Part shown: one piece after another, positions 26,107-40,992 of the stretch
How positions within the stretch are numbered: the first letter of the stretch is position 1
Layout of the letters: each line of letters opens with the position of its first letter
Assembly: GCA_902538495.1 (NCBI GenBank)
Contig: CACBFJ010000001.1
Span: 1-64,000 of the forward strand
Length of the DNA: 64,000 nucleotides
Source: an uncultured Pelagibacteraceae bacterium
GTDB taxonomy: Bacteria > Pseudomonadota > Alphaproteobacteria > Pelagibacterales > Pelagibacteraceae
Direction: 5' to 3'
Position numbers and translations under genes: made by a program
Notes under the pieces: generated by a model
Database searches by the model: none
What the model was told of the DNA's origin: nothing
Seen by the model: the letters and a program-made list of their open reading frames with translations, nothing else

Positions 26107-26955
26107 TTAATCTTTATAAGGAATGACTTTATGTTTTTGTTGACCTAGCTTGTCTATTCCTAAAATAACTTCTTCACCACCTTTTAAGAAAACAGGTGGC
26201 TTCATATTTTCACCAACACCAGGTGGAGTTCCTGTACAACAAATATCGCCAGGATGTAAACTCATGCACGAGCTCATGTAAGAAACTAAAGTTTTAATAT
26301 CAAAAATCATTTTACTTGTATTTCCAGTTTGCATCCTTTTTCCATTGACATCTAAAAACATATCTAAATTTTGATAGTCTGGTAATTCATCTGTAGTAAC
26401 TATGAATGGACCTATTGGACCAAAAGTATCAAAACCCTTTCCTTTATCCCAAGTTAAACCTCTATTTTTTTGGAAATCTCTCTCACTCACATCATTAACT
26501 AGAAAAAAACCAAGAACATGGTCTAAGGCGTTTTCAATACTAACATTTGTAGCTTTTTTTCCAATCACAAAACCAATTTCAACTTCCCAATCAGTATGGT
26601 TAGATCCCTTAGGAACAATGATAGGATCGTTTGGTCCAGTAATACAACTAGTAAATTTTGAGAAAATAATCGGTTCTTTTGGTATCGGCAAATTTTGTTC
26701 TTCGGCATGATCTTTGAAATTTAAACCAATACCAATAAATTTTGATGGGTTAGAAACGCATGCACCTATTCTAGAACTTGAATCAAGCTTTGGTAAACTT
26801 GAAATATCAGTTTTTTTTATTTTCTCTAATGTGTCAAAATTTAATGTGCCAGGGTTTAAATCATTTATAATTGATGACAAATCTCGGTAATTGTTTTCAC
26901 TATCTATGATTGCTGGTTTTTCTTCTCCAACACTACCTATTCTACATAATTTCAT
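26107..26955 (-). CDS. fumarylacetoacetate hydrolase (FAH) family protein
   Basis: 282 residues. The C-terminal FAH domain starts at FIGIGLNFKDHAEEQNLP (about 72). Metal ligands lie in the WEVEIGFVIGK block (about 122, EVE) and in VNDVSERDFQ (about 154). GDICCTGTPPGVG near 237 is the closing motif. Members hydrate or hydrolyse 2-keto acids, including 2,4-diketo-3-deoxy sugar acids, fumarylpyruvate and oxaloacetate tautomers. The neighbouring sugar-acid genes make a diketo-sugar-acid substrate plausible, not proven. Confidence 0.88.
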   Translation of the reverse strand: MKLCRIGSVGEEKPAIIDSENNYRDLSSIINDLNPGTLNFDTLEKIKKTDISSLPKLDSSSRIGACVSNPSKFIGIGLNFKDHAEEQNLPIPKEPIIFSKFTSCITGPNDPIIVPKGSNHTDWEVEIGFVIGKKATNVSIENALDHVLGFFLVNDVSERDFQKNRGLTWDKGKGFDTFGPIGPFIVTTDELPDYQNLDMFLDVNGKRMQTGNTSKMIFDIKTLVSYMSSCMSLHPGDICCTGTPPGVGENMKPPVFLKGGEEVILGIDKLGQQKHKVIPYKD

Positions 26956-27016
26956 ATTTCTCTTCCTGGACTTAAATAATTAGCTCCTTTTGTAGTAAAT
27001 GAATTTTATTCACTAG

Positions 27017-27919
27017 TCAATAATTAGTGGTTCTTGCTAATCGAGCTGCACCCCGAACACCGCTTGCATCACCAAATTTGGGTTTTAAAAAAGTCCCCTC
27101 AAATTCACCCCCTGCTACAAATTTTTTCATTTTTTGTTTAATTTCATCTAAAAAATTTATTTCGTTAGATACCCCACCCCCGAAAACAAACACATCTGGA
27201 TCAATAATATTAACAACAGTGGCTAAAGACATAGCGAGTTGATCTTTATATTTATCAATTAATTTTTCTGCATCTAAATCAAGTTTTCTATGCATCTCAA
27301 ATATCTTTTGGGCAGATAAATCCTTTTTAAACTCGTTTTTGAACGCTTTAGAAATACCTATACCCGCAACAAAGTTTTCTATTTCTCCAGCTCTTAAATT
27401 GGTTTTTTTTATTTGAACACCTTCAATACAAGCGCTCGGTATTTGATTATGCCCCCATTCTCCAGTAATCCCATTAGGTCCATTGACAATTCGTTTATCT
27501 ATAACTAAACCGCCCCCAACACCAGATCCAAGAATTACCCCAAAAACTATTTTGTAATGTTTTCCAGAACCATCTATTGCTTCTGATAAAGCAAAACAGT
27601 TTGCATCATTTTCACAATAAATTTCTTTACCAATCTCACTCCGTAAATCTCTTTGTAAAGGTTTGCCATTTATCCAAAAAGAATTAGGCGCATTTTTAAC
27701 TAGTCCTGTTTGAATAGAATGAATCCCTGGATGACATACACCCACTGGTAATTCTTTACCAGCTTTACGCTCAAGTTCGATAACTATTTTTTTAATTATG
27801 GATAATGTATCTTTATAATTTTTTGGAACCTCAGTTCTTTCTCTATGATGCTCATTGCCAACATCATCTAATAACACATACTCTATCTTACTTGCCCCAA
27901 GATCAATACCAATCTGCAT
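27017..27919 (-). CDS. ROK family sugar kinase
   Basis: 300 residues. N-terminal phosphate loop DLGASKIEYVLLDD at 6-19, catalytic ENDANCFA (Asp105), and GVILGSGVGGGLVIDKRIVNG near 130. The GEWGHNQI histidine follows, but the ROK zinc motif CxCGxxGCxE expected after it is replaced by IPSACIEGVQIKKTNLRAGEIENFVAG. Family members phosphorylate glucose, fructose, GlcNAc or ManNAc. Here it ends the minus-strand Gfo/Idh-iolD run by 3 bases and may phosphorylate a cyclitol breakdown sugar. Confidence 0.85.
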   Translation of the reverse strand: MQIGIDLGASKIEYVLLDDVGNEHHRERTEVPKNYKDTLSIIKKIVIELERKAGKELPVGVCHPGIHSIQTGLVKNAPNSFWINGKPLQRDLRSEIGKEIYCENDANCFALSEAIDGSGKHYKIVFGVILGSGVGGGLVIDKRIVNGPNGITGEWGHNQIPSACIEGVQIKKTNLRAGEIENFVAGIGISKAFKNEFKKDLSAQKIFEMHRKLDLDAEKLIDKYKDQLAMSLATVVNIIDPDVFVFGGGVSNEINFLDEIKQKMKKFVAGGEFEGTFLKPKFGDASGVRGAARLARTTNY

Positions 27920-27922
27920 ATT

Positions 27923-29083
27923 TTATCTCATTAATTTATTTATTTCTTTATTAATAAAAAGTTTTGGAATTTTACATGTTGTACTAAGTCTAATTGGTTT
28001 ATTTGTTTTAGCAGATTGCATAGTTGATTGTATCAAGTCAAGAACATGCAAAGATACTTCTCCATTGCATCTATGTATCTTTTTTTTATCAATACAATAA
28101 GCCATTTCTGCAAGACCAACTCCTCTGTAATTTGCGTTAGTAGGTGACTCATTTGCTCTAGAACTTTGGGTTCTAATATTAATTTTTCCTAGTGGCATTT
28201 GATTTGTTTTAAATTCTCTCCATGGGCTTCCTAATTTTTTACATACATAAACTGAACCACCAAACATATTAGGATCTGGCACAATCATTGAACCTTTGGT
28301 TCCATAAAGTTCGATATGATTTCTTTGATGGGCTATAACATCAAAAGATAAAGTGAGTCTGATTATGCTTCCATTTTTAAATATGATTGTTGTAAAATAT
28401 GTCGTCGGACAATCTACCTTAATTCTTTTTCCTTTTTTTGGACCAATACCAATTGTTCTAAATCTTGAACCTTTCATTAAACTTGCTGCTTTTACCTCTT
28501 TTGCTGGACCCAATAAATTTACTAATGCTGTGAGATAATAAGGTCCCATATCAATTACTGGACCACCTTCTTTTTTTGCAAACCATGGTTCTGGGTCTGG
28601 ATGATAAGATTGAACTCCTGGAAAAGCAAAAATCGCATTACCTAAATTTACTTTGCCTATACTTTTACTTTCTAATAATTCTTTTGATTTTTGATTACCT
28701 CCTCCTAAAAAAGTATCTGGAGCATTTCCTAAATATAATTTCTTTTTTTTTGAGAGCTTTAGTAATTCTTTTCCGTCTTTTAAATTAATTGCTAATGGTT
28801 TTTCTGAGTATACATGTTTTCCATTTAACAAAGACTTTTTTGCAATTTGGTAATGAACTTTTGGAGGGGTTAGATTTAAAATTATTTCAACCTGTTTATC
28901 TTTAAATAAATTACTTACCGAAACTGCTTCAATTTTATTAATTTTAGCACATTTCTTAGATGCTTTTTCTTTAACATCTGCACATTTAATGATTTTAAAA
29001 TTTTTGAAATATTTGTGAGCTCTGAAATATGTTTCAGCGATATGACCACAACCAATTAAGCCAACTTTAAATACTTTGCTCAT
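27923..29083 (-). CDS. Gfo/Idh/MocA family oxidoreductase
   Basis: 386-residue NAD(P)-dependent dehydrogenase. Rossmann motif GLIGCGHIAETY at residues 8-19, the signature EKP in YSEKPLAINL near 94, and GPVIDMGPYYL near 174 with the aspartate of the active-site G-x-x-x-D-x-G-x-H-like pattern. The usual catalytic histidine is Tyr here (GPYYL). Relatives oxidise cyclitols or aldoses. It lies 5 bases past iolD and may act on an inositol isomer or inosose. Confidence 0.88.
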   Translation of the reverse strand: MSKVFKVGLIGCGHIAETYFRAHKYFKNFKIIKCADVKEKASKKCAKINKIEAVSVSNLFKDKQVEIILNLTPPKVHYQIAKKSLLNGKHVYSEKPLAINLKDGKELLKLSKKKKLYLGNAPDTFLGGGNQKSKELLESKSIGKVNLGNAIFAFPGVQSYHPDPEPWFAKKEGGPVIDMGPYYLTALVNLLGPAKEVKAASLMKGSRFRTIGIGPKKGKRIKVDCPTTYFTTIIFKNGSIIRLTLSFDVIAHQRNHIELYGTKGSMIVPDPNMFGGSVYVCKKLGSPWREFKTNQMPLGKINIRTQSSRANESPTNANYRGVGLAEMAYCIDKKKIHRCNGEVSLHVLDLIQSTMQSAKTNKPIRLSTTCKIPKLFINKEINKLMR

Positions 29084-29088
29084 TAGGG

Positions 29089-30933
29089 TTATACTCCCTG
29101 TCTTTGTTTTGCTTTACCTTCTTTGTGTAATTTAAGAGCTTTTTCGTTTTCTTTAGTTTTAGGAATCTCTAAAGTTGGACTTTCCCAATAAGCTGATCCT
29201 TCAAGCCATTGATACGAATGAGTTTTGATTGAAATAACGTAAGTCACTTTTGATTTCTTCGCTCTTTTGAAAGCTTCCTCTAATTCACTGATAGAACTTA
29301 CCTCTTCAGACTTTGCCCCCATACTTTCTGCATGTTTTGCAAAATTTACTTTTACTAAATTTGAAACATTTGAACTCTCAAACAAACAATTAAATTCTTT
29401 TCCACCTTTAAATAATTGAAGTCTATTAATGACAGCATGACCACCATTATCACAGACAATCACAATTAGTTTATTATTAGTTATTACAGATGAATATATA
29501 TCTGAATTATAAAGTAAATATGATCCATCACCTACAAATGTGATAACTTCTTTGTTTGGATTGGCCATTTTAATTCCTAAAGCTCCAGAAATTTCATAAC
29601 TCATACAACTAAAGCCCCACTCTGTTTCATGAGTATTAAGTTCTCTTGGTCTCCAAATTTGAACAACTTCACCTACCAAACCTCCAGCTGCAGTGACAGC
29701 AATATCACTTGGATCAGAGTTTCTATAAATTGCACCAACTGCATGAGCATAACTTGGGAGTTTTTGATTGGTTGGTCCACTTTCTTTATCAACATAATCA
29801 TTCCAAGATTTAAGTTCATCTCTGGATTTTTTATGCCATTCCTCGGATGCTTTCCAATCACCTAAAGCTTGTGATAGTTCATTTAAAGAAACTTTTGCAT
29901 CTCCAATAATTGATTGTGCCATATGTTTACTAGCATCAAATCTTGCAACATTAATTGATACTAGTGAAAAATTTGGATTTTCAAAATTAGACCATGACCC
30001 AGTTGTGAAATCTCCTAACTTAGTTCCGATAGCAATCGCTAAATCAGTTTTTTTTGCAAAGTTATTTGCTGCTTTTCCCCCTAAACCTCCAATAGGTCCT
30101 AAAAAATGAGAATGATCTCTTTTCATAGAAGAATAACCCATTACAGTTTGTGTTACAGGGATATTGTGTTTAACTGCAAAAGTAGAAAGTTCCTCCATTG
30201 CATCTGAGTAAAAAACACCTCCACCAGAAATTATGATTGGATTTTTTGATTTTTTAATTTTTTTAGCTGCCTCTTTAATTTGAAAATCATCAGGTCTTGG
30301 TCTTCGTATATTATGGATTTTTTCTTTAAAAAAATCCTCAGGATAATCAAAAATTTCTCCTTGTATATCCTGGCATAAAGATATGCATACCGGGCCACAA
30401 TCAGCTGGGTCTAATAAAACTTGTACAGCTTGGGGAAATGTTTGTAAAATTTGTTCTGGTCTGGTTATTCTATCAAAATATTTTGTAACTGGTTTAAAAG
30501 CATCATTTTGAGTAATTCCTGGATTATTAAAATGTTCTACTTGTTGTAAAACTGGATCAGGCATCCTGTTTGCGTAAGTATCACCTGGAAGGAATAAAAT
30601 TGGCAGTCTATTACTCATCGCAACTGCTGCAGCTGTTACCATATTTGTAGAACCAGGACCTACAGAACTTGTTGCTACAAATACTTGTTTTCTTCTTTTT
30701 GCTCTAGCGTAAGCAATTCCTGTTAAAGCCATATTTTGCTCATGATGACCTCTATAAGTTGGAAGTTTATCTTTATTTTCCTCTAAAGCTTGTCCTAAAC
30801 AAGCTACATTACCATGACCAAATATTCCAAAAGCACCAGCGAATAAAGGTTCTTTTTTACCATCGATAAGAATTTTTTGAGAAGTCAGGAACTTTACAAT
30901 TGCATGAGCACATGTAAGCTTTATTTTTTTCAT
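29089..30933 (-). CDS. iolD: 3D-(3,5/4)-trihydroxycyclohexane-1,2-dione hydrolase
   Basis: TPP-dependent C-C hydrolase that opens the ring in myo-inositol breakdown, giving 5-deoxy-glucuronate. 614 residues. IolD features include the N-terminal FAGAFGIFGHGNVACLGQAL, YRGHHEQNMALTGIAYARA with the cofactor-activating glutamate, and SSVGPGSTNM. The TPP/Mg motif GDGSYLLYN lies near residue 469. Other acetolactate-synthase-like enzymes share the fold; the GIFGHGNV start and the iolE and iolG neighbours favour IolD. Starts divergent from the aldehyde dehydrogenase gene, 54 bases apart. Confidence 0.9.
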   Translation of the reverse strand: MKKIKLTCAHAIVKFLTSQKILIDGKKEPLFAGAFGIFGHGNVACLGQALEENKDKLPTYRGHHEQNMALTGIAYARAKRRKQVFVATSSVGPGSTNMVTAAAVAMSNRLPILFLPGDTYANRMPDPVLQQVEHFNNPGITQNDAFKPVTKYFDRITRPEQILQTFPQAVQVLLDPADCGPVCISLCQDIQGEIFDYPEDFFKEKIHNIRRPRPDDFQIKEAAKKIKKSKNPIIISGGGVFYSDAMEELSTFAVKHNIPVTQTVMGYSSMKRDHSHFLGPIGGLGGKAANNFAKKTDLAIAIGTKLGDFTTGSWSNFENPNFSLVSINVARFDASKHMAQSIIGDAKVSLNELSQALGDWKASEEWHKKSRDELKSWNDYVDKESGPTNQKLPSYAHAVGAIYRNSDPSDIAVTAAGGLVGEVVQIWRPRELNTHETEWGFSCMSYEISGALGIKMANPNKEVITFVGDGSYLLYNSDIYSSVITNNKLIVIVCDNGGHAVINRLQLFKGGKEFNCLFESSNVSNLVKVNFAKHAESMGAKSEEVSSISELEEAFKRAKKSKVTYVISIKTHSYQWLEGSAYWESPTLEIPKTKENEKALKLHKEGKAKQRQGV

Positions 30934-30987
30934 AATTGTAGATATATTCTCTTAAAATTTCGCTTAATTAACCATAAAATAAAAATT

Positions 30988-32430
30988 ATGTATAGTAAAT
31001 TTGGGCAGTTCATTGATGGTAAGTGGCAACAGGCGGAAAAAAAAGAAACTTACGATGTTATAAATCCTGCTACGGAAGAAATTATTGGCCAAGCGTCTAA
31101 AGCGTCTTCAGCAGATGTTCAAAAAGCTCTTAAATCTGCAGAGAAAGGTTTGGAAGTTTGGAAAAACACTTTACCTTGGCAGAGATCATATATTATTAGA
31201 AAAATTGCTGATCTTTTAAGAAAAAAACAAGATGTTTTAGCAAAATGGTTAACGATTGAAGTTGGAAAACCTTTAGCTGAGGGAATTGGCGAAACTGGTG
31301 GGGCTGCTGATATTTTTGAGTGGAATGCTGAAGAAACAAAGAGAATTTATGGACAAACAGTCGAAAGTCGATTTCCAGATACGAGAGTTCATGTTTATTA
31401 TCAGCCAGTTGGAGTTGTAGCAGCTTTAGTGCCATGGAATTTTCCTTTAATTCTAGCAGCGAGAAAAATTTCAACAGCATTAGCTGCTGGATGTTCAGTA
31501 ATTTGTAAGCCTGATGTAATTACTCCAGGAACAGTAATGGAGTTAGTAGATATTTGTAAAGAAGCGGGAGTCCCTCCTGGAGTTGTAAACTTATTGTCAG
31601 GAGATCCTGAAAGTATTTCAAATGAGTTGTTAGAGTCTGATATTATTAAAAAGGTTTCAATTACTGGATCAACAAGAGTAGGAAAATTAATCTTAAAAAA
31701 AGCCGCAGACAAAGTTCAAAGAGTAACAATGGAGCTTAGTGGACACTCACCTTTTATAGTTTTTGATGATGTTGATATAAATAAAGTTGCAGATATGGCA
31801 ATTACTGCAAAATTTAGAAATAATGGTCAAGTTTGTATTTCACCTAACAGATTTTATATACAAGAAAATAGAAAAGATGAATTCATTAATGCGTTTATTG
31901 AAAGAACAAAAAAATTAAAAATTGGAAATGGTTTAGATGAAGGAGTTCAATTAGGTCCATTAACAACTGCAAAAAGATTAGGAGAAATCGAAGAATTGGT
32001 TGAAACAACTAAAAAGGAAGGAGCAAAAGTTTTGTTGGGTGGAAAAAGACCTCAAGGTTTTAACAAAGGATATTTTTATGAGCCAACAGTTTTTGACAAT
32101 GTAAAGGATAATTTTACAATAATGAAACAAGAACCATTTGGTCCACTAGTTCCAATGTTGTCATTTAAAACTTTTGATGAAGTAGTTGAGAGAGCTAATG
32201 ATAATGACTTAGGATTATGTAGTTATATTTATACAAATTCTATGGACAAAGCTCACAGAGCTTCAGAATTAATGGAAACTGGTACTGTAGCGGTTAATAC
32301 TCCTGCAGTTGCGATAGCTGAGGCACCTTTTGGTGGAATTAAACAAACTGGATATGGACGTGAAGGTGGTTCAATGGCAATTAAAGATTATCTTAATATA
32401 AAGTACACTCACCTTGGTTTGAAATCTTAA
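30988..32430 (+). CDS. NAD(P)-dependent aldehyde dehydrogenase
   Basis: 480 residues from the chosen ATG (MYSKFGQFIDGKWQQAEKKE). The open frame runs 37 codons further upstream into iolD, but that part lacks family features. The catalytic glutamate lies in MELSGHSPF and the cysteine in FRNNGQVCISPNRF; the VGVVAALVPWNFPL and EAPFGGIKQTGYGREGG blocks are standard. It groups by look with succinate/2-oxoglutarate semialdehyde dehydrogenases. In this cluster it may oxidise a uronate-type aldehyde or malonate/tartronate semialdehyde. Confidence 0.88.
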   Translation: MYSKFGQFIDGKWQQAEKKETYDVINPATEEIIGQASKASSADVQKALKSAEKGLEVWKNTLPWQRSYIIRKIADLLRKKQDVLAKWLTIEVGKPLAEGIGETGGAADIFEWNAEETKRIYGQTVESRFPDTRVHVYYQPVGVVAALVPWNFPLILAARKISTALAAGCSVICKPDVITPGTVMELVDICKEAGVPPGVVNLLSGDPESISNELLESDIIKKVSITGSTRVGKLILKKAADKVQRVTMELSGHSPFIVFDDVDINKVADMAITAKFRNNGQVCISPNRFYIQENRKDEFINAFIERTKKLKIGNGLDEGVQLGPLTTAKRLGEIEELVETTKKEGAKVLLGGKRPQGFNKGYFYEPTVFDNVKDNFTIMKQEPFGPLVPMLSFKTFDEVVERANDNDLGLCSYIYTNSMDKAHRASELMETGTVAVNTPAVAIAEAPFGGIKQTGYGREGGSMAIKDYLNIKYTHLGLKS

Positions 32431-32431
32431 A

Positions 32432-33223
32432 ATGAGGCCAAATAAAATAAAAAAGATGATGAGAGATGGTGAGCAAATAATTAATGGCTGGTTACAAATT
32501 CCTAGCTCTTTTTCAGCGGAAGTAATGTCTCATCAAGGTTGGGACTCGCTTACAATTGATATGCAACATGGTGTTATAGATTATCCAAATGCATTACAAA
32601 TGCTGCAATCAATTTCATCTACGGATGTTACTCCTTTAGCAAGAGTAAACTGGAATGAACCAGGACAAATAATGAAAATTTTAGATGCAGGGTGCTACGG
32701 CGTAATTTGTCCAATGGTGAGCAACAAATTTGAAGCTGAAAAATTTGTTCAAGCATGCATGTATCCCCCTAAAGGGTATAGAAGTTTTGGACCAATTAGA
32801 GGATTAATTTATGGAGGTTCAGATTATGGAGATTTTGCAAATGATGAGATTTTAAAAATGGCAATGATAGAGACAAAAGAAGCCTTAGATAAATTAGATG
32901 AAATTATGAGTACGCCTGGAATAGATGGAATTTATATTGGACCTGCTGATTTAAGTCTGGCTATAGGTCAAAAACCAGCTTTTGATAATCGTGAAGGAAG
33001 TCCAACTTATGAAAAGATTTTGAATATCTTGGAACATGCAAAAAAAAATAAAATTTTTGCAGGTATTCATAATGCTAGTCCAGAGTATGCAAAAAAAATG
33101 CTTAATTTAGGATTTAATTTGGTAACCATTGGATCCGATCAAAGGTATATGAGTGCAGGTGCAAAAGATGCTGTATCTAAATTAAAATCAATCAAATCAA
33201 AAGAAGACTCTAAAGCTTACTAA
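32432..33223 (+). CDS. HpcH/HpaI family class II aldolase
   Basis: 263-residue metal-dependent aldolase that splits 2-keto-3-deoxy acids or 4-hydroxy-2-oxo acids to pyruvate and an aldehyde. Family features: WDSLTIDMQHGVID near residue 40 (catalytic His), PLARVNWNEP near 70, CMYPPKGYRSFGPIRG near 108, and YIGPADLSLAIG near 170. It starts 1 base after the aldehyde dehydrogenase stop. Likely cleaves the sugar-acid end product of the pathway encoded here. Confidence 0.9.
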   Translation: MRPNKIKKMMRDGEQIINGWLQIPSSFSAEVMSHQGWDSLTIDMQHGVIDYPNALQMLQSISSTDVTPLARVNWNEPGQIMKILDAGCYGVICPMVSNKFEAEKFVQACMYPPKGYRSFGPIRGLIYGGSDYGDFANDEILKMAMIETKEALDKLDEIMSTPGIDGIYIGPADLSLAIGQKPAFDNREGSPTYEKILNILEHAKKNKIFAGIHNASPEYAKKMLNLGFNLVTIGSDQRYMSAGAKDAVSKLKSIKSKEDSKAY

Positions 33224-33229
33224 ATTTAA

Positions 33230-34195
33230 GTGTCAGATAAAAAAAAAATTTTGATAATTCAACCTATTCATAAAGCGGGGATAGATCTCATAAAGAATAA
33301 CACAAATTATGATTATGAGATTATTGAAAACATAGATGACAAAGATATTAAACAAAAAATTTTGGAGTGTGATGGTCTATCAATTAGAACAGCAAATTTA
33401 TCTAGCGAATTAATCAATATATCAAAAAAACTTAAGATTATATCTCGCCATGGCGTTGGGTACGACAATATTGATCTCAAGTCTTCTAAAGAAAAAAATA
33501 TCACCTTGGCAATTACGGCTACAGCAAATGCTGTTGCGGTGGCAGAACATGTTATGTTTATGTTGCTCAATATATCAAAGAGAAAAAACATGTATGATGA
33601 GGCTGTTAAAACAGGAAATTTTTCTAATAGAAATAAACTTCCAAAAACAATTGAACTTTGGAAAAAAAATATTTTAATTGCTGGATTTGGTAGAATTGGT
33701 CAATCTTTAATTAGAAGATGCAAAGGATTTGAAATGAATGTTTTTGTTTATGATCCATTTGTTTCAAAAGATATTATTGAGGAATTGGGTGGAAAAAAAG
33801 TTGAAGATCTTACAGAAGCAGTAAAATCTATGGATGCCATCTCTTTACATATGCCTCTTAATGAAAAAACGAAAAATATTATCAATTATGACTTAATTAA
33901 AACAATGAGGAAAAATTGTATAATTATTAATGCTGCAAGAGGTGGAATGATTAATGAGAATGACTTAGATAAAGCATTAAATGAAAGTCTTATATTCGGT
34001 GCAGGTTTAGATGTTTTTGAAACAGAACCACCTAAAGAAGATAATCCTTTGCTAAAAAACAATAAAGTTTTTTTAAGTCCTCATACCGCTGCATTTACTG
34101 AGGAATGCATGATAAGAATGGGAAAAGAAACAATACAAAATATAATTGATTTTTTTGAAAAAAAATTAGACAAATCAAAAATTATTAAACTTTAA
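33230..34195 (+). CDS. D-isomer-specific 2-hydroxyacid dehydrogenase
   Basis: 321 residues, GTG start 6 bases past the aldolase stop. NAD-binding GFGRIGQSLIRRC lies at about residue 150 and the catalytic Arg in NAARGGMINENDLDKAL near 234. A catalytic Glu lies in FETEPPKEDNP and the His in LSPHTAAFTEE near 284. Relatives include phosphoglycerate, glyoxylate/hydroxypyruvate and lactate dehydrogenases. Given the aldolase beside it, reduction or oxidation of a short hydroxy acid such as glycerate, tartronate or lactate is plausible. Confidence 0.9.
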   Translation: MSDKKKILIIQPIHKAGIDLIKNNTNYDYEIIENIDDKDIKQKILECDGLSIRTANLSSELINISKKLKIISRHGVGYDNIDLKSSKEKNITLAITATANAVAVAEHVMFMLLNISKRKNMYDEAVKTGNFSNRNKLPKTIELWKKNILIAGFGRIGQSLIRRCKGFEMNVFVYDPFVSKDIIEELGGKKVEDLTEAVKSMDAISLHMPLNEKTKNIINYDLIKTMRKNCIIINAARGGMINENDLDKALNESLIFGAGLDVFETEPPKEDNPLLKNNKVFLSPHTAAFTEECMIRMGKETIQNIIDFFEKKLDKSKIIKL

Positions 34196-34197
34196 TT

Positions 34198-34698
34198 ATG
34201 CGAATAAATTTCAAAAATTTTGGACTATTAGAAGCATTAGTATTGTTATCATTGGTATATGTGGTTGGGATGTTGATTTGGACCGCAAGTACAAGGCCCG
34301 CAGTTGAAGCAAAAGCTAACTTAGTCAAAGAAAATCATAAGAAAGTAGTCGATTTTATCAATGGAGAAATAAATAATTGCGGGAATAATGATGAAGGTAA
34401 ATTGACTGTTTGGGGTGATCCGTGTAATGGCGAGTGGTCCTCATCCAAAGTTGTGAATTATATAAACAAAAATCTTAATATAGAGAATCCTTTTTCAGAG
34501 GATACTAAAGTAAAAACTGATCCTGATCCTAGAATTAAAGCAGAAGGTAAGGCGGGGCAATCAGTTGAGATGGGTGTTATATTTGTGATGTCATCAAATT
34601 TTTTACCTAATCCTGGATCTGAATGGGTTGTGGGTACTTGTTTTAAATCTCCATGTGTTGCTGCCGGAAATAATGAACTAACTTCACTCTATAGATAA
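34198..34698 (+). CDS. pilin-like small membrane-anchored protein, unknown function
   Basis: 166 residues. N-terminal FGLLEALVLLSLVYVVGMLI (residues 8-27) looks like a type IV pilin/pseudopilin helix with glutamate at the fifth place (F8 as +1, E12 as +5). The -1 residue is Asn7 instead of Gly. A charged helix follows (AVEAKANLVKENHKKVVDFI), then a small domain with four cysteines in two pairs (C61/C75 and C147/C152 approx.). Starts 2 bases after the dehydrogenase stop. No assembly genes are near. Confidence 0.6.
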   Translation: MRINFKNFGLLEALVLLSLVYVVGMLIWTASTRPAVEAKANLVKENHKKVVDFINGEINNCGNNDEGKLTVWGDPCNGEWSSSKVVNYINKNLNIENPFSEDTKVKTDPDPRIKAEGKAGQSVEMGVIFVMSSNFLPNPGSEWVVGTCFKSPCVAAGNNELTSLYR

Positions 34699-35601
34699 TC
34701 AATTTTTATAAATTTCAATTTCAGATTTTTTTAATGTATCTGTAAGATAATTATAACCAATTTTTGCATACTCTAACGGATTTGCTTTTGCCGGATCCTG
34801 CTCTGCCTCAACTACCAACCATCCTGAATAATTATTATTTTTTAATACATTAAATAAAGGTTGATAATCAATACAACCATCTCCTGGTACTGTAAACGCA
34901 CCTTCTAAGAAAGCACCTCTAAAACTTAAGTCCTCTTTCAAAGATTTTTCAAGAACTTGTTTTCTTATATCTTTACAATGGACGTGCAAAATTCTCTCAT
35001 GATAATTTTGTAATATGTATTTTGAGTCCCCTTTTGCAAATAACATGTGTCCTGTATCTAATGTTAATTTTACACTTTCATGAGTATTTTCTATGAGTCT
35101 TTCAGTGTCTTTTTGAGTTTCAATTACTGTTCCCATGTGATGATGATATGCCAAAGGCATCCCTTCATCCTCTAAATATTTTCCTAGTTCAGAAATTTTT
35201 TCACAAAACTTCTGCCATTCATCCCTTTCCATTTGAGGCCGAGTTGATAATTTTCTATTAGGATCTCCTTGTATAGAGCCAGAAACTTCCGCGAAAACTA
35301 TACAAGGTGCATCACAATCTTTAAATAAATCTAGTTGTTCTTGAATGGATTTTTTTTCTTCCTCAACAGAATTTTTTCTTAGATTAGCGCCATACCATCC
35401 TGAGCAAAGTTTAAGATTAAATTGATCTAATTTTGGAATTAATTCCGAAGATTTCTTTGGAAATTTTCCACCAGACTCTATGCCTATGTAGCCTGCTTCA
35501 TTGGCTTCTTTTAAACATTGTTCTAATGTAGTTTCACCACCTAACTCAGGCATGTCATCATTACTCCATGCGATAGGTGCAACTCCTAATTTTACTGACA
35601 T
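34699..35601 (-). CDS. iolE: myo-inosose-2 dehydratase
   Basis: TIM-barrel enzyme of 300 residues that removes water from 2-keto-myo-inositol. It opens VKLGVAPIAWSNDDMPELGG, the IolE-type start, and has the sugar isomerase/epimerase metal ligands: GYIGIESGG near residue 38, AYHHHMGTVIE near 150, LTLDTGHMLFAKGD near 182, and HVHCKDIRKQ near 210. Convergent with the pilin-like gene and divergent from iolG, 44 bases apart. Confidence 0.9.
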   Translation of the reverse strand: MSVKLGVAPIAWSNDDMPELGGETTLEQCLKEANEAGYIGIESGGKFPKKSSELIPKLDQFNLKLCSGWYGANLRKNSVEEEKKSIQEQLDLFKDCDAPCIVFAEVSGSIQGDPNRKLSTRPQMERDEWQKFCEKISELGKYLEDEGMPLAYHHHMGTVIETQKDTERLIENTHESVKLTLDTGHMLFAKGDSKYILQNYHERILHVHCKDIRKQVLEKSLKEDLSFRGAFLEGAFTVPGDGCIDYQPLFNVLKNNNYSGWLVVEAEQDPAKANPLEYAKIGYNYLTDTLKKSEIEIYKN

Positions 35602-35645
35602 AAGAAATTTTTTTAGTTAAGTTATTATTTTAATACAAATTTTAA

Positions 35646-36647
35646 ATGATTGATATAGCTTTATTTGGACTTGGTAGAATTGGTATTATGCATGGAAAAA
35701 ATTTAATGCGTAGTAAAGATTTTAATCTTAAATATATTTATGACATTGAACAAAAATTATCAAAAAGATATTCAAAAACATTAAAAACAAAAGCTATAAA
35801 CAATCCATCTGTGGCTTATAAAGATAAAGATGTAAAAGCTATTTTTATTGCCTCAACAACATCGACACATATTAGATTTATTTTAGATTGTGTTAAAAAT
35901 AGAAAAATTATCTTTTGTGAAAAACCACTGGATTTAAGTATTAAAAAAATTGAGTCCTGTAAAAAAAAAATTAATAAATTAAATCCAAAAATACAATTAG
36001 GTTTTAATAGACGATATGATCCAACACACAATAATTTAAGAAAACAATTACTTAGTGGAAAAATAGGTAAATTAGAAAAAATTATTATCACTAGTCGTGA
36101 TCCTGCCCCACCAACTATGAAATATCTAAAAGAATCTGGTGGTATTTTTAGAGATATGATGATCCATGATTTTGATCTTGTTAGATTCTACCTTGGTAAT
36201 GATGAGCCTATAAAAATAATAGCTTCTGGTAGCAACATATCAGACAAAAGATTTGATAAAATAAAAGATTTTGAATTAGCATCGACCATAATTAGATCTA
36301 GAGCTGGTGTTCAGTGCATAATAACTAATTCAAGACATTGTAGTTTCGGTTATGATCAAAGAATAGAATTATTTGGATCAAAAGGTATGTTAATTTCAGA
36401 AAATAAAAGACAAAACGAGACATCTTTATATTCTGCACAATCAACTTCGAACAAATCTCCTTTGCTTAATTTTTTTATTGAGAGGTATAAAGATGCTTAT
36501 AATAATCAACTAAAGGATTTTGCGAAATATATAAGAAAGAAAATTCAACCTCTTGCAGGATTTGAAGAGGGAAGAAAAGCTCTGATAATTGCAAATGCAG
36601 CTCAAAAATCTTTACGATCAAAAAAGTTTGAAAAACTTAATTTTTAA
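35646..36647 (+). CDS. iolG: inositol 2-dehydrogenase
   Basis: Gfo/Idh/MocA dehydrogenase of 333 residues oxidising myo-inositol to 2-keto-myo-inositol. GLGRIGIMHGKNL at 8-20 binds NAD, FCEKPLDLSI near 95 carries the EKP signature, GFNRRYDPTHNNL near 120 is the IolG-type block, and IFRDMMIHDFDLVRFYLG near 170 has the catalytic Asp and His. Opens a plus-strand run leading into the sugar ABC transporter. Confidence 0.88.
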   Translation: MIDIALFGLGRIGIMHGKNLMRSKDFNLKYIYDIEQKLSKRYSKTLKTKAINNPSVAYKDKDVKAIFIASTTSTHIRFILDCVKNRKIIFCEKPLDLSIKKIESCKKKINKLNPKIQLGFNRRYDPTHNNLRKQLLSGKIGKLEKIIITSRDPAPPTMKYLKESGGIFRDMMIHDFDLVRFYLGNDEPIKIIASGSNISDKRFDKIKDFELASTIIRSRAGVQCIITNSRHCSFGYDQRIELFGSKGMLISENKRQNETSLYSAQSTSNKSPLLNFFIERYKDAYNNQLKDFAKYIRKKIQPLAGFEEGRKALIIANAAQKSLRSKKFEKLNF

Positions 36648-36721
36648 TTGAATCAACCCTCAGTAGAATACAACCTGTCTGCTTTACAACTAAATAATAT
36701 TTTGATTAGATTTTATTTTTA

Positions 36722-36733
36722 AAAGTTAACTTT
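36722..36733. promoter_or_regulatory. palindrome in front of the sugar-binding protein gene
   Basis: AAAGTTAACTTT is a perfect 12-base palindrome, 15 bases before the likely start codon of the binding-protein gene. It could be an operator half or chance in an AT-rich leader. Confidence 0.3.
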
Positions 36734-36748
36734 AATATGAGGAAAATA

Positions 36749-37672
36749 ATGAAAACAATAAAGAACTTTATATTAGCTTTAGCTGCATGGGCAATGATGT
36801 CTGTATCTGCTTTAGCTGTAGATATAATTGTGGTTTCTCATGGTCAAGCAAACGATCCTTTCTGGTCAGTTGCTAAAAATGGAGTTGATGCTGGATGTAA
36901 AGACATGGGAGTGTCTTGCAAATACACAGCACCAGCTACTTTTGACATGGTAGAAATGGCAAAATTAATTGATAATGCTGTATCACAAAAACCAAAAGGT
37001 ATAGTGATCACATTACCAGATGCTGCAGCCTTAGGAAAATCAGTTAAAGCTGCAATTGCTGCTGGTATTCCTGTAATATCAATGAACTCTGGATCTGATG
37101 ATTATGCATCTTTAGGAATTAGTGCACACGTTGGACAAACTGAGTTTGAAGCAGGTGTAGGTGGTGGACAAAAAATGAAAGCTGCTGGTGGAAAAAAAGC
37201 ATTATGTGTTAACCATGAGGTAGGAAACGTTGCACTTGATAGAAGATGTGCTGGTTTCAAAAAAGGTTTTGGTGGATCTGTTGATATTTTAGGTACATCA
37301 AATGACCCAACAGAAATTCAAAAAGCTGTTGCTGCAAAATTAGGTGGTGGCTATGACACTATTCTAACTTTAGGTGCTGGATTATCTGGAGAAGCAGCTT
37401 TGAAAGCACTTGAGTCAGCTGGAAAAGTTGGTTCTGTAAGATTAGGAACATTTGATATGTCTCCAAATATGTTAAAAGCTGCTGCTGCAGGAAAAGTAGA
37501 GTTTTTAATTGACCAACAGCAATATCTACAAGGATATTTACCAATAGCTATCTTTGGACAATATATGAGATGGGGAACAATGCCAGCAGGTGTAGTAATG
37601 ACTGGACCTGGGTTTGTTACTCCTGACAATGCGTCTAAAGTAATTAAATGGGCAGCTCAAGGTTATAGATAA
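36749..37672 (+). CDS. sugar ABC transporter substrate-binding protein (RbsB/PBP1 type)
   Basis: 307 residues from the ATG behind an AGGAAAAT ribosome site (an ATG 4 codons earlier is also open). Signal peptide MKTIKNFILALAAWAMMSVS ending ALAVD; then IIVVSHGQANDPFWSVAKNG, the pentose/hexose-type binding domain, with PKGIVITLPDAAALGKSVK near 75 and the late FVTPDNASK. Periplasmic receptor for a sugar or cyclitol. Next to iolG and iolE, inositol is the leading candidate ligand; ribose- or fructose-type ligands remain possible. Confidence 0.9.
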   Translation: MKTIKNFILALAAWAMMSVSALAVDIIVVSHGQANDPFWSVAKNGVDAGCKDMGVSCKYTAPATFDMVEMAKLIDNAVSQKPKGIVITLPDAAALGKSVKAAIAAGIPVISMNSGSDDYASLGISAHVGQTEFEAGVGGGQKMKAAGGKKALCVNHEVGNVALDRRCAGFKKGFGGSVDILGTSNDPTEIQKAVAAKLGGGYDTILTLGAGLSGEAALKALESAGKVGSVRLGTFDMSPNMLKAAAAGKVEFLIDQQQYLQGYLPIAIFGQYMRWGTMPAGVVMTGPGFVTPDNASKVIKWAAQGYR

Positions 37673-37683
37673 AAATATGAATT

Positions 37684-37718
37684 AAAGGCCTGACTAATAT
37701 TAGTCAGGCCTTTTTTTT
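37684..37718 (+). terminator. strong intrinsic terminator inside the ABC operon
   Basis: Perfect palindrome GGCCTGACTAATATTAGTCAGGCC (37687-37710), extended by AAA/TTT, followed by eight T. It stands between the binding-protein gene and the permease gene and should leave most transcripts with only the binding protein. Confidence 0.88.
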
Positions 37719-37744
37719 AGTCATCTTTAAATTATAATTTTTAT

Positions 37745-38872
37745 ATGTCTGTAAAATCAGAGAGTATTCAATCTAAAAAAGATAGTGGACAAGATGAAAG
37801 ACTTAAAAAAATTTCACCTCTAAGAGTTTTATTAAACAGACCAGAGCTTGGTGCTTTGGGCGGCTCAATTTTAGTTTTTATTTTTTTTGGAATAGTTGCT
37901 GGTGACACTGGAATGTTTAGCGCTTATGGGACATTAAATTTTTTAGATGTTTCAGCTAATTTAGGAATTATTGCTATCGCTGCTGCAATGTTAATGATAG
38001 GTGGAGAGTTTGATTTATCAATTGGTTCAATGATTGGTTTTGCAGGAATCTGTATCACTATACCTGCAATTTATTGGGGCTGGCCTTTATGGACAAGTAT
38101 TATTTTTGCTTTTGCTATGGCAGTACTAATTGGTTATTTCAATGGTATAATGGTAGTAAAAACAGGTCTTCCATCCTTTATAGTAACACTAGCAATGTTG
38201 TTCATTTTAAGGGGGGCAACTTTGGCTATTACGAGATTAATTACAGGAAGAACTCAAGTACCAGGATTAAGAGTTTTGATAGAGGATGATCCAATCGCTT
38301 GGTTGTTTGCAACTGATACTTTTCAATGGTTATTCACATGGCTGGGATCGATGAAATTAATTGCACTGAGAACTGACGGTACACCATTAGCTACAGGTAT
38401 TCCACCATCAGTAATATGGTTTATTGCTCTTACATTATTTGCGACTTGGATACTTATGAAAACTAGATATGGAAATTGGATATTTGCATCAGGTGGAGAT
38501 AAAGTTGGTGCTACAAATGTTGGTGTGCCTGTTGGAAGAGTAAAAATAAGTCTATTCATTGGAACAGCTGTAGCATCGACAATATTTGCTTGTATTCAAG
38601 TTTTAGATGCAGGTTCTGCAGATACTATGAGAGGAACTTTAAAAGAATTGGAAGCAATAGCAGCTGCCGTGGTTGGCGGCTGTCTTTTGACTGGAGGTTA
38701 TGGCTCTGCCATCGGAGCAGCATTGGGCGCTATAATTTTTGGTACTGTATCAATGGGAATTTTTTATACAGACGTTGATACTGATTGGTTTAAGGTTTTT
38801 TTAGGTGCAATGATGTTAATCGCAGTTGTATTCAACAATTACATTAGAAAAAAGGTTACGGAGACTAAGTAA
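37745..38872 (+). CDS. sugar ABC transporter permease (RbsC/FrcC type)
   Basis: 375 residues with a hydrophilic N-terminus of about 40, then about ten hydrophobic helices. Family segments: [18 protein letters not shown] near residue 84, [27 protein letters not shown] near 137, [19 protein letters not shown] near 250 (EAA-like loop) and [22 protein letters not shown] near 310. Forms the membrane channel for the upstream binding protein; its stop shares a base with the ATPase start (TAATG). Confidence 0.92.
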
Positions 38873-39666
38873 TGTCTGAATATTTAGTTCAATTCAATAA
38901 TATAAGTAAATTTTTTGGTAAAGTGATTGCTTTAAAAGACGTCACCATGAAGCTAAAAAAAGGCGAAATAATGTGCTTACTTGGTGACAATGGAGCTGGA
39001 AAATCTACTTTGATAAAAACTTTAGCAGGGGTTCATAAGCCTGATGAAGGTGAAATTATTTTTGAAGATAAAAAAATAGTTTTTGACTCACCACGAGATG
39101 CTTTGGATATTGGGATAGGTACTGTTTATCAAGATCTAGCGTTGGTTTCCCTTATGAGTGTTACTAGAAATTTTTTTATGGGTAGAGAACCACAAAAAGG
39201 TTTACCTTTTTTTAAAACTTTTGACATTGAAAAAGCAAACAGCATAGCTGCAGAAAGAATGGGTCAAATAGGTATCGATGTGAGAGACCCATCACAAGCT
39301 GTCGGTACGATGTCTGGAGGTGAAAGACAATGTCTCGCTATTTCTAGAGCAATTTATTTTGGAGCAAAAGTTTTAGTATTAGATGAACCAACGTCAGCAT
39401 TAGGTGTGCATCAAGCTTCAATGGTCCTGAAATATATTGTTAAAGCAGCATCGCAAGGTTTAGCCGTAATTTTAATAACACACAACGTTCATCATGCTTA
39501 TCCTGTTGGAAATAGTTTTACAGTTTTAAATCGAGGAAAAAGCATGGGAACATTTCAAAAAAAAGATATATCTAGAGAAAAACTTTTAAGCATGATGGCA
39601 GGTGGCGAGGAATTAGATAAGTTAGAAGTCGAACTTAAAGAAATGGACCGAATAGAAAATAATTAG
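38872..39666 (+). CDS. sugar ABC transporter ATP-binding protein (FrcA type)
   Basis: 264-residue single-cassette ATPase: Walker [10 protein letters not shown] at about 38-46, signature [14 protein letters not shown] near 148, Walker [16 protein letters not shown] near 168, and switch His in [11 protein letters not shown] near 203. The single cassette (not the double RbsA form) and the GVHQ tail of Walker B match FrcA-like importers. Completes a binding protein-permease-ATPase set. Confidence 0.93.
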
Positions 39667-39734
39667 ACAAATATACCACTTCTACATACATAAATTTTGC
39701 TATAATATTTTTAAAAAAAAGAAAGGGGTAACAT

Positions 39735-40052
39735 ATGAAAGCATATATAATGGGAAACTACACTGAAAAAGCTTTTCAAGGTTTTTTAAAAGATCCAACT
39801 AGTGACAGAAAAGCTGTAGTAGAGCAACTTACAAAAGCAATGGGGGGAACTATGCATAGCATGGATATTGTGAGAGGTTCATTTGATTTTGTTGTTGTAG
39901 CAGAAATGCCAAGTTTCGATGACTTTGCAGCAATTAAATTAGTTGTTGAAGGGTCTGGTGCAGTTAAAAATTTAACAATGTTGGAGGCTATTGATTTTAC
40001 TAAAGCTACATCAAAAGCTAGTAAAATAGGCTATAAAGCACCTGGTCAGTAA
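39735..40052 (+). CDS. GYD domain protein
   Basis: 105 residues: MKAYIMGNYTEKAFQGFLKD, GGTMHSMDIVRGSFDFVVVAE and AAIKLVVEGSGAVKNLTMLEA match the small ferredoxin-fold GYD domain, whose role is unknown. An AAAGGGGT ribosome site stands 7 bases before the ATG, so expression may be high. It follows the ABC operon by 68 bases and ends at its own stem-loop. Confidence 0.82.
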   Translation: MKAYIMGNYTEKAFQGFLKDPTSDRKAVVEQLTKAMGGTMHSMDIVRGSFDFVVVAEMPSFDDFAAIKLVVEGSGAVKNLTMLEAIDFTKATSKASKIGYKAPGQ

Positions 40053-40586: not shown

Positions 40587-40940
40587 TTAATGATTTGGAT
40601 TATCATTATCGACAACAAGACAAATTTCAGATTTTGTTAAGAATCTTCTTCCTGTGCCATTATCCAGTGAAAACATTCCACCAATGCCTTTTACTGCATC
40701 TATTGTTAAATCAGTGTGTTTCCATTTTTCATATTGGTCTCCATTCATGTAAAACGGGACGCCTCCAATTTCACCTAGTTTTATATCATTATCACCTAAA
40801 GGAAATTCACCTTCCTGAAAACACATAGGCGCACTTCCATCACAACATCCTCCAGATTGGTGAAACATCAATTTTTCACCATACTTTTCTTTTAATTCAG
40901 ATAATAAGCTTAAAGCCGAACGTGTTGCAGATACTTTCAT
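40587..40940 (-). CDS. DUF779 family protein
   Basis: 117 residues from MKVSATRSALSLLSELKEKY. The conserved HQSGGCCDGSAPMCFQEGEF (cysteine pair near residue 38, third Cys near 45) and the GVPFYMNGDQYEKWKHTDL block are typical of DUF779, a family that routinely sits beside acetaldehyde-type aldehyde dehydrogenases, as here. An ATG 6 codons earlier lies inside a perfect hairpin, so the later start is preferred. Role unknown; the cysteine cluster suggests metal binding. Confidence 0.87.
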   Translation of the reverse strand: MKVSATRSALSLLSELKEKYGEKLMFHQSGGCCDGSAPMCFQEGEFPLGDNDIKLGEIGGVPFYMNGDQYEKWKHTDLTIDAVKGIGGMFSLDNGTGRRFLTKSEICLVVDNDNPNH

Positions 40941-40949
40941 ATTTTTTCT

Positions 40950-40978
40950 CTGGCCCATGATATCGAATCATGGGCCAG
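40950..40978 (-). other. perfect hairpin between the aldehyde dehydrogenase and DUF779 genes
   Basis: 12-base stem CTGGCCCATGAT / ATCATGGGCCAG with a 5-base loop, located 15 bases after the dehydrogenase stop and 9 bases before the DUF779 start on the minus strand. After the stem comes AGAGAAAAAATATG, so it lacks a terminator U-run on this strand. Likely an intra-operon mRNA stabiliser or processing site. Confidence 0.65.
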
Positions 40979-40992
40979 TATATATTATTTGT

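Follow-up and report, generated by a model that had tools for sequence, protein, structure and literature searches.

In the canonical Iol pathway of Bacillus subtilis, Salmonella and rhizobia, inositol is broken down by IolG, IolE, IolD, IolB, IolC, IolJ and IolA, acting in that order. A variant pathway in Thermotoga maritima (IolM, IolN, IolO and IolK) runs to tagaturonate and is not known to involve IolD. The available part of a survey (PMC9430895) sets out the enzyme order of the canonical pathway and requires three of iolB, iolC, iolD and iolE before a cluster is counted; a two-gene iolD-iolE cluster would be left out. For a missing fourth gene the same text offers three possible causes: an incomplete genome, an error of assembly or a frameshift. 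Here we describe an island at 26107-40052 of a 64,000-nucleotide stretch of DNA (the window; positions 1 to 64,000 of contig CACBFJ010000001.1, assembly GCA_902538495.1) from an uncultured member of the Pelagibacteraceae (SAR11). With all of its open reading frames (ORFs) intact, the island encodes IolG, IolE, IolD, an ATP-binding cassette (ABC) transporter and, as candidates for the lower steps, an aldehyde dehydrogenase (ALDH), an HpcH/HpaI-type aldolase (HpcH) and a D-2-hydroxyacid dehydrogenase (2HADH) (Table 1).

The best explanation of the island, to which we give a probability a little under 60%, is an inositol system with an oxidative, phosphate-free lower branch that would end in hydroxypyruvate and malonate semialdehyde. 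The broader claim, that the module replaces IolB, IolC and IolJ by some oxidative route, is very probable. The host genome, a metagenome-assembled genome (MAG), amounts to 966 kb over 26 contigs and is 86.5% complete; near-identical or identical islands occur in records of uncultured Pelagibacteraceae such as AG-916-I02 (locus L144).

IolB and IolC were not found in iolE-bearing SAR11 genomes

An earlier note on this DNA, made from its letters, had named iolG, iolE and iolD, and each of the three products passes the curated cut-off of its NCBIfam equivalog model. The other families read from the island (ROK, FAH, ALDH, HpcH/HpaI, 2-hydroxyacid dehydrogenase and a second Gfo/Idh oxidoreductase) are all confirmed by Pfam, and the transporter beside the iol genes is a sugar-type set of periplasmic binding protein (SBP), permease and ATPase, the SBP being nearest to the rhizopine model.

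No IolB (PF04962) was found in the host MAG or, with the host included, in any of the 51 iolE-bearing genomes of the family; completeness is 90% or higher, with contamination no higher than 5%, for 27 of the 51. Similarly, no IolC (TIGR04382) scored over the cut-off in the same 51 genomes, in which the best SAR11 kinase reached 110 of 300 bits. Because neither gene was found in any of the 51 (IolC being judged by its cut-off), the gap is hardly an accident of assembly, and the variant inositol pathway lacking IolB and IolC that the earlier note had proposed is well supported. That note had also listed IolA as not in the window, and here the genome-wide picture differs: IolA, or methylmalonate-semialdehyde dehydrogenase (MMSDH), is encoded in 44 of the 51 carriers, at sites none of which falls within the iolE locus. 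(Note that MMSDH was not found in the host MAG, which is incomplete, and is present in genome G003, a one-contig relative with a near-identical island.) When 50 SAR11 iolE loci, each at most 20 kb long, were compared with a protein of genome G176 that resembles fructose-bisphosphate aldolase (FBA), no relative of it was found; class II FBA was not searched genome-wide.

ALDH, HpcH and 2HADH form a fixed module with iolD and iolE across SAR11

Among 147 genomes of the family, iolE was found over its cut-off in 51 and an HpcH at least 67% identical to the window copy in 55. Both were present in 46 genomes, iolE only in 5, HpcH only in 9 and neither in 87 (Fisher p = 2.8e-23, a statistic that ignores kinship). 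In four of the five iolE-only genomes (G084, G138, G140 and G142) iolE lies about 2.5 kb or less from a contig end, and the nine HpcH-only genomes are at most 86% complete, one of them (G125) holding an iolE fragment.

We compared 50 loci of the family sampled by iolE and 80 named SAR11 loci fetched by HpcH, 45 of the latter being at least 20 kb long. In the common arrangement IolD is divergent from ALDH-HpcH, with 2HADH, IolE and IolG nearby. The 45 long loci carry ALDH (45), IolD (45), the second Gfo/Idh (45), 2HADH (41), IolE (41) and IolG (40), and less constantly SBP (29), ROK (27) and FAH (24); ALDH is found in all 80 named loci. The iolE-sampled loci hold IolG (48), 2HADH (43), ALDH (36), IolD (36), ROK (34), Gfo/Idh (34), HpcH (13) and FAH (8), and many of these loci stop before the IolD side, with HpcH just beyond in several of the genomes. 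The gene set is thus conserved across the SAR11 carriers, a point that the earlier note had singled out for checking, and its lower genes ALDH, HpcH and 2HADH are a fixed module with iolD and iolE.

Being patchy across loci, ROK and FAH appear to be accessory. This bears on the two lower routes that the earlier note had sketched. In the first, a phosphorylated branch, ROK would stand in for IolC and HpcH for IolJ, giving dihydroxyacetone phosphate and malonate semialdehyde. A ROK gene is indeed present in the window, with relatives in 46 of the 80 named loci and at the frequency just given among those sampled by iolE. However, it is absent from 18 of the 45 long loci and has no relative in six plasmid regions that carry the module (below); the IolB that would form the ketone is still lacking, and ALDH and 2HADH would go unused. 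The substrate of IolJ, moreover, is not a 2-oxo acid. Enzymes of the HpcH type bind 2-oxo acids through a metal, according to the available part of PMC10099721. We regard the phosphorylated branch as highly improbable. The second route, an oxidative one, is the best-fitting reading, but its core would consist of 2HADH and HpcH and not, as the earlier note had it, of FAH, which we rejected as a core enzyme for its patchy occurrence.

Two variations were seen among the SAR11 islands. Several islands without ROK (L026:17202-20000, + strand, and similar) have, adjoining Gfo/IolD, another ABC transporter and an additional, distantly related 2-hydroxyacid dehydrogenase. In some genomes (L029:11571-15421), PhyH, 2-oxoglutarate-Fe(II) oxygenase-type, ketopantoate-reductase-like and DUF1907 genes lie between HpcH and 2HADH.

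The module recurs in other genomes and on plasmids

The idea that the pathway is one suited to a streamlined ocean bacterium is too narrow, since plasmids of bacteria from soil and elsewhere carry the module as well. When 385 genomes sampled from the whole class were compared, 86 of those beyond the family had relatives of HpcH (38-56% identity) (88 at E 1e-50 when G000 and G003 are included). Around 28 of these, within 1.5 kb on each side, iol genes were seen only in G161, and in 20 larger stretches in G161 and G176. G161 has IolE, 2HADH, ALDH, IolG, HpcH and IolD inside about 16 kb. In G216 the genes form one run, 2HADH-HpcH-ALDH-IolG-IolD-IolE. G176 has HpcH-IolG-IolE adjoining a related transporter, with IolD-2HADH elsewhere. 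In G230 the genes are split between two contigs, one with ALDH-HpcH-2HADH and the other with IolE-IolD-IolG; neither IolB nor an over-cut-off IolC was found in this genome.

Six of nine named plasmid regions carry ALDH-HpcH-2HADH in the SAR11 order, divergent from iolD-iolE. These plasmids belong to Rhizobium leguminosarum Vaf-108, R. daejeonense, Paracoccus ferrooxidans, Acidiphilium multivorum, Pantoea sp. At-9b and Klebsiella aerogenes. An iolG is annotated in five of the six clusters, and a Gfo/Idh gene is next in the operon or follows iolG in five of the six. Identities between Vaf-108 and the window are 50% for IolD, 46% for HpcH, 44% for ALDH, 41% for IolE and 37% for 2HADH; the plasmid Gfo and the second Gfo/Idh of the window share 23%, which makes them distant relatives at most. 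In three contrast regions without iol genes, the aldolase is accompanied by galactarate/glucarate dehydratase genes (Leisingera and a Comamonadaceae bacterium) or by a gene of the mandelate-racemase family (Agrobacterium cucumeris). Since the module is found on enterobacterial plasmids, of which that of K. aerogenes (pC9_001, L230) is typed conjugative and that of Pantoea sp. At-9b is L229, it may move between classes.

Other genes recur near these clusters. An SDR oxidoreductase gene follows iolE in five of the six plasmid clusters, in G216 and in G176 (L226:2867-3679, - strand; L123:7933-8754, + strand; L122:12483-13301, + strand), and just 2 of the 50 SAR11 iolE loci yielded a relative (43% identity). 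G176 also has a trio of genes (L127:14891-17531; such trios also at L242 and L243) for a class II aldolase, an IolC-like protein (296 of 300 bits) and an IolB-like protein (152 of 205 bits). Related trios adjoin the canonical iolB/iolC genes of two genomes, G416 and G357, so that the trio may represent a third, further deoxy-uronate module.

SAR11 and plasmid modules share a distinct IolD lineage

In 18 control loci, each including IolB, neither an HpcH nor a 2HADH match was found (0/18), and three of the 18 have an ALDH, at only 27-28% identity. Among plasmid records, 23 have an IolD that shares 65% or more identity with the Vaf-108 protein, and in every one of these an HpcH is present, the two gene starts being 2.5-13.8 kb apart. 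The 33 records whose IolD is less similar are all missing from the list of 34 records with HpcH. Some of the records are near-copies, so these counts are not independent events.

In a tree of 44 IolD rows, 17 canonical sequences and 3 from genomes without IolB split off at 100/100 from the remainder, which comprises SAR11 (9), the plasmids (6), G161, G216, G230, G176, G306 and four more. (The sample covers 17 of the 18 control loci, L246 being left out, and 9 of the 11 SAR11 loci that were chosen; the window copy is represented by the near-identical copy of G003, L021. Note that 11 rows, 8 of them from SAR11, are of unusual composition, which can mislead such models.) A distinct IolD lineage is thus common to the SAR11 and plasmid modules, and beyond SAR11 the evidence for the module is this lineage together with linkage.

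The HpcH aldolase and its relatives

The aldolase scores below the cut-off of every equivalog model compared: HpaI, the best NCBIfam model, 158 of 369 bits, GarL 134 of 407 and RhmA 117 of 441. The nearest solved structure is SwHKA of Sphingomonas wittichii RW1 (185 bits, as against 133 for HpaI). SwHKA was crystallised with hydroxypyruvate and binds 2-oxo acids bidentately on a metal that is coordinated by Glu145 and Asp171 (PMC10099721, available part). Residues matching its His44, Arg69, Ser116, Glu145 and Asp171 are present in 46 of 46 genomic HpcH rows. Galactarate/glucarate clusters contain HpcH relatives (52-55% identity), from which we infer that the subfamily handles 2-keto-aldarates; a compound of this class would be the HpcH substrate in the inositol branch.

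The same relatives favor the view that the lower genes are an unrelated aldarate or sugar-acid pathway lying beside the iol genes by chance. However, the linkage recurs in SAR11, on four alphaproteobacterial and two enterobacterial plasmids, in G161 and in G216, and the linked HpcH proteins come from at least two separate branches of the tree. No galactarate/glucarate dehydratase or GlxR-type reductase was found among the island genes, and HpcH and 2HADH are missing from the canonical control loci. A chance neighborhood is accordingly very unlikely.

In the HpcH tree the SAR11 aldolases form one clade (100/100), and the plasmid, G216, G230 and G176-type rows form a second (100/99) with the Agrobacterium row inside it; G161 falls with three other rows (99/93), two of them aldarate-linked and the third unlinked. 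The tree fixes no position of the SAR11 clade relative to the others. (Of the eight SAR11 loci chosen, six are represented in the tree and L048 and L052 are not; SwHKA and two other rows are long branches.) The branching suggests that the aldolase was recruited into the inositol setting at least twice.

A proposed oxidative lower branch

5-Deoxyglucuronate, which IolD forms, carries its aldehyde at C1 and its carboxylate at C6, with hydroxyls at C2 to C4 and a CH2 group at C5. In the pathway that we propose, whose substrates and products after IolD are predicted from sequence, the rhizopine-type ABC transporter would import an inositol, which IolG, IolE and IolD, as judged by family, would convert to 5-deoxy-D-glucuronate. 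ALDH would then oxidise C1 to give 5-deoxy-D-glucarate, 2HADH the D-configured C2 hydroxyl to give 2-keto-5-deoxyglucarate (2-oxo-3,4-dihydroxyadipate), and HpcH would cleave C3-C4 to hydroxypyruvate and malonate semialdehyde, which the MMSDH encoded elsewhere would convert to acetyl-CoA. No ATP would be used for phosphorylation. Oxidation at C1 and C2 would leave a 2-oxo acid with a C4 hydroxyl, so that a retro-aldol cleavage would have to yield malonate semialdehyde, the C3 compound common to the canonical pathway and the proposed branch, and hydroxypyruvate. The six enzymes that recur in SAR11, on the plasmids, in G161 and in G216 (IolG, IolE, IolD, ALDH, 2HADH and HpcH) would match the six steps one to one.

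The 2HADH scores higher on the phosphoglycerate dehydrogenase model (268 bits) than on the models of glyoxylate/hydroxypyruvate reductases (192 and 149 bits). None of the three scores reaches its cut-off, and the difference hints only weakly that the enzyme may oxidise a 2-hydroxy acid. Its Arg237, Glu266 and His285, which we take to be the Arg-Glu-His catalytic triad, are invariant in 8 aligned sequences.

Alternatively, 5-deoxyglucarate could be dehydrated at C2/C3 to 4-hydroxy-2-oxoadipate by an enzyme that we did not recognise as such (the Gfo/Idh, FAH or a TIM-barrel isomerase), with HpcH then releasing pyruvate and malonate semialdehyde and 2HADH in a side role. The best NCBIfam model of the aldolase fits this scheme, the substrate of HpaI being the one-carbon-longer analogue of 4-hydroxy-2-oxoadipate. 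Two features of the plasmids would suit a pyruvate product and so weigh against our reading: pyruvate carboxylase adjoins two of the clusters (R. daejeonense and P. ferrooxidans), and ppsA is near a third (K. aerogenes). (Pyruvate carboxylase is also near the iol-less contrast cluster of A. cucumeris.) A further point on this side is that neither known glycerate kinase family (PF13660 or PF02595) was found in any of the 147 SAR11 family genomes, and pyruvate requires no such kinase. For this reason the exit from hydroxypyruvate to glycerate seems closed in SAR11, D-glycerate was set aside as an end product there, and hydroxypyruvate might instead be transaminated to serine, which is our guess, or used otherwise. 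On the other side, none of the recurrent genes was recognised as belonging to a known family of aldarate dehydratases, FAH is as patchy as noted above, and the recurrent 2HADH would be left without a step. We consider dehydration to pyruvate quite unlikely, and hydroxypyruvate as the C3 product of the oxidative branch falls just short of an even chance.

Several further observations count against an oxidative branch that replaces the canonical one. G161 and G216 carry iolB and iolC as well as the module, P. ferrooxidans has iolC beside it, and the IolB-, IolC- and FBA-like genes of G176-type genomes lie about 15 kb from iolE. Outside SAR11, a genome-wide HpcH relative is found in 9 of 18 genomes without IolB and in 11 of 29 with it, so that the absence of IolB at the level of the genome, tried as a predictor of HpcH, shows no association. 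Genome G453, a real exception, has an IolD of the HpcH-type lineage with two PF04962 genes nearby. Nor does the aldolase bear a mark of its own: the position of SwHKA Phe210, a candidate marker of inositol-linked HpcH, is His in 45 of the 46 genomic rows and does not discriminate, and a single inositol-specific aldolase clade was rejected, the iol-linked rows not forming one.

Some of these observations would be explained if the module served another cyclitol (chiro-, scyllo-, amino- or methyl-inositol), the IolD product being a stereoisomer unusable by IolB; organisms with two sets would then use both substrates. Because G161, G216 and Paracoccus keep canonical iol genes, the module of these carriers may act on a different isomer of inositol. 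The resemblance of the SBP to the rhizopine SBP model, the extra Gfo/Idh and SDR genes of the clusters and the separate IolD lineage also point this way. Against it, IolG and IolE pass the cut-offs of the myo-inositol equivalogs, IolG only just, and in the SAR11 carriers and G230 no IolB or over-cut-off IolC was found that could serve myo-inositol. Another cyclitol is therefore, in our estimate, unlikely, although the lower chemistry may be the same as in the oxidative branch, and to that extent the two readings overlap.

Taken together, the SAR11 and plasmid linkage points to a second, phosphate-free way to complete inositol breakdown. The odds stand somewhat against the full account, namely an ATP-free oxidative lower pathway in about a third of the sampled Pelagibacteraceae that is spread by plasmids, has its own IolD lineage and has recruited its aldolase repeatedly.

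Other genes of the island

Table 1. Features of the island, with positions in the window; functions marked as proposed are predictions.
Feature	Position	Strand	Model scores and remarks
IolG, inositol 2-dehydrogenase	35646..36647	+	TIGR04380 356.8 bits, cut-off 355 (only just over)
IolE, 2-keto-myo-inositol dehydratase	34699..35601	-	TIGR04379 412 bits, cut-off 290
IolD, thiamine diphosphate-dependent ring-opening acylhydrolase, HpcH-associated lineage	29089..30933	-	TIGR04377 806 bits, cut-off 715
ALDH, succinate-semialdehyde type; proposed 5-deoxyglucuronate dehydrogenase	30988..32430	+	PF00171 539 bits
HpcH/HpaI-type metal-dependent 2-oxo-acid aldolase; proposed products malonate semialdehyde and a C3 2-oxo acid	32432..33223	+	PF03328 110 bits, cut-off 25
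2HADH, phosphoglycerate-dehydrogenase-like; proposed 5-deoxyglucarate 2-dehydrogenase	33230..34195	+	PF02826, PF00389; TIGR01327 268 bits, cut-off 454
Second Gfo/Idh/MocA oxidoreductase, adjoins iolD	27923..29083	-	PF01408/PF22725
ROK-family sugar kinase, accessory	27017..27919	-	PF00480 210 bits
FAH-family hydrolase, nearest 2,4-didehydro-3-deoxy-L-rhamnonate hydrolase, accessory	26107..26955	-	NF053535 390 bits, cut-off 500
SBP, rhizopine/inositol type	36737..37672	+	NF052284 316 bits, under cut-off 420
ABC transporter permease, sugar-type	37745..38872	+	PF02653, sugar permease models
ABC transporter ATPase, sugar-type	38872..39666	+	PF00005, sugar ATPase models
Conserved 166-aa protein between 2HADH and iolE	34198..34698	+	no NCBIfam/Pfam match at E 0.001
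GYD-domain protein, island edge	39735..40052	+	PF08734 67.5 bits; in 27/45 long named loci

The start of ALDH was set at 30988, the mechanical ORF starting at 30877; on the succinate-semialdehyde dehydrogenase model the protein scores 487 bits, under the cut-off of 646. An AlphaFold model of the second Gfo/Idh, made from 5 sequences, had a mean pLDDT of 53.7 and was not used. The 166-aa protein has, by eye, a hydrophobic, pilin-like N-terminal stretch, and relatives of it occur in 53 of the 80 named SAR11 loci. At the edge of the island, the GYD-domain protein varies from 33 to 92% identity among otherwise near-identical islands (L021, L027 and L031). Just outside, at 40587-42711 on the - strand, a DUF779 gene adjoins a gene for an ExaC-type acetaldehyde dehydrogenase (864 of 900 bits), and relatives of each are found in 27 of the 80 named loci.

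Significance and comparison with known systems

If the proposed branch is correct, rules for annotating inositol degradation overlook a class of degraders, a new use for HpcH-type aldolases is established, and SAR11, among the most numerous of ocean bacteria, could convert a plant or algal cyclitol directly to a precursor of serine and glycine. The branch also argues that a missing iolB need not imply a broken or incomplete pathway. The compact plasmid-borne module in a culturable Rhizobium makes the branch directly testable. No title or abstract describing an oxidative lower inositol branch was found among the literature matches listed, although a prior description may exist; none of the matches listed concerned inositol breakdown in SAR11. 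In the available parts of two SAR11/SAR116 papers (PMC6018831 and PMC12262181), inositol appears in connection with the synthesis of di-myo-inositol phosphate.

The island resembles several described systems in part. Like the T. maritima pathway it would be a non-canonical inositol route, but it has an IolD, and its IolE scores 27.8 of 300 bits on the IolO model. It shares with rhizopine (moc) catabolism an SBP of similar sequence and Gfo/Idh dehydrogenases, although the SBP falls under the model cut-off; to our knowledge, a lower branch such as that of the island is not part of moc catabolism in rhizobia. Galactarate/glucarate pathways have a close HpcH/HpaI aldolase, there expected to act on a 2-keto-aldarate, whereas the island is without a recognised aldarate dehydratase or tartronate-semialdehyde reductase and is linked to iolD and iolE. 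SwHKA, the closest sequence with a solved structure, has in common with the island aldolase Glu145, Asp171, Ser116, His44 and Arg69, but the island enzyme has His for Phe210, and the likeness is one of sequence. From the canonical Iol pathway the system differs in that its 51 SAR11 carriers have no IolB or over-cut-off IolC, in having ALDH-HpcH-2HADH instead and in its other IolD lineage; in common with that pathway it has IolG, IolE and IolD, and malonate semialdehyde and MMSDH would be expected in both.

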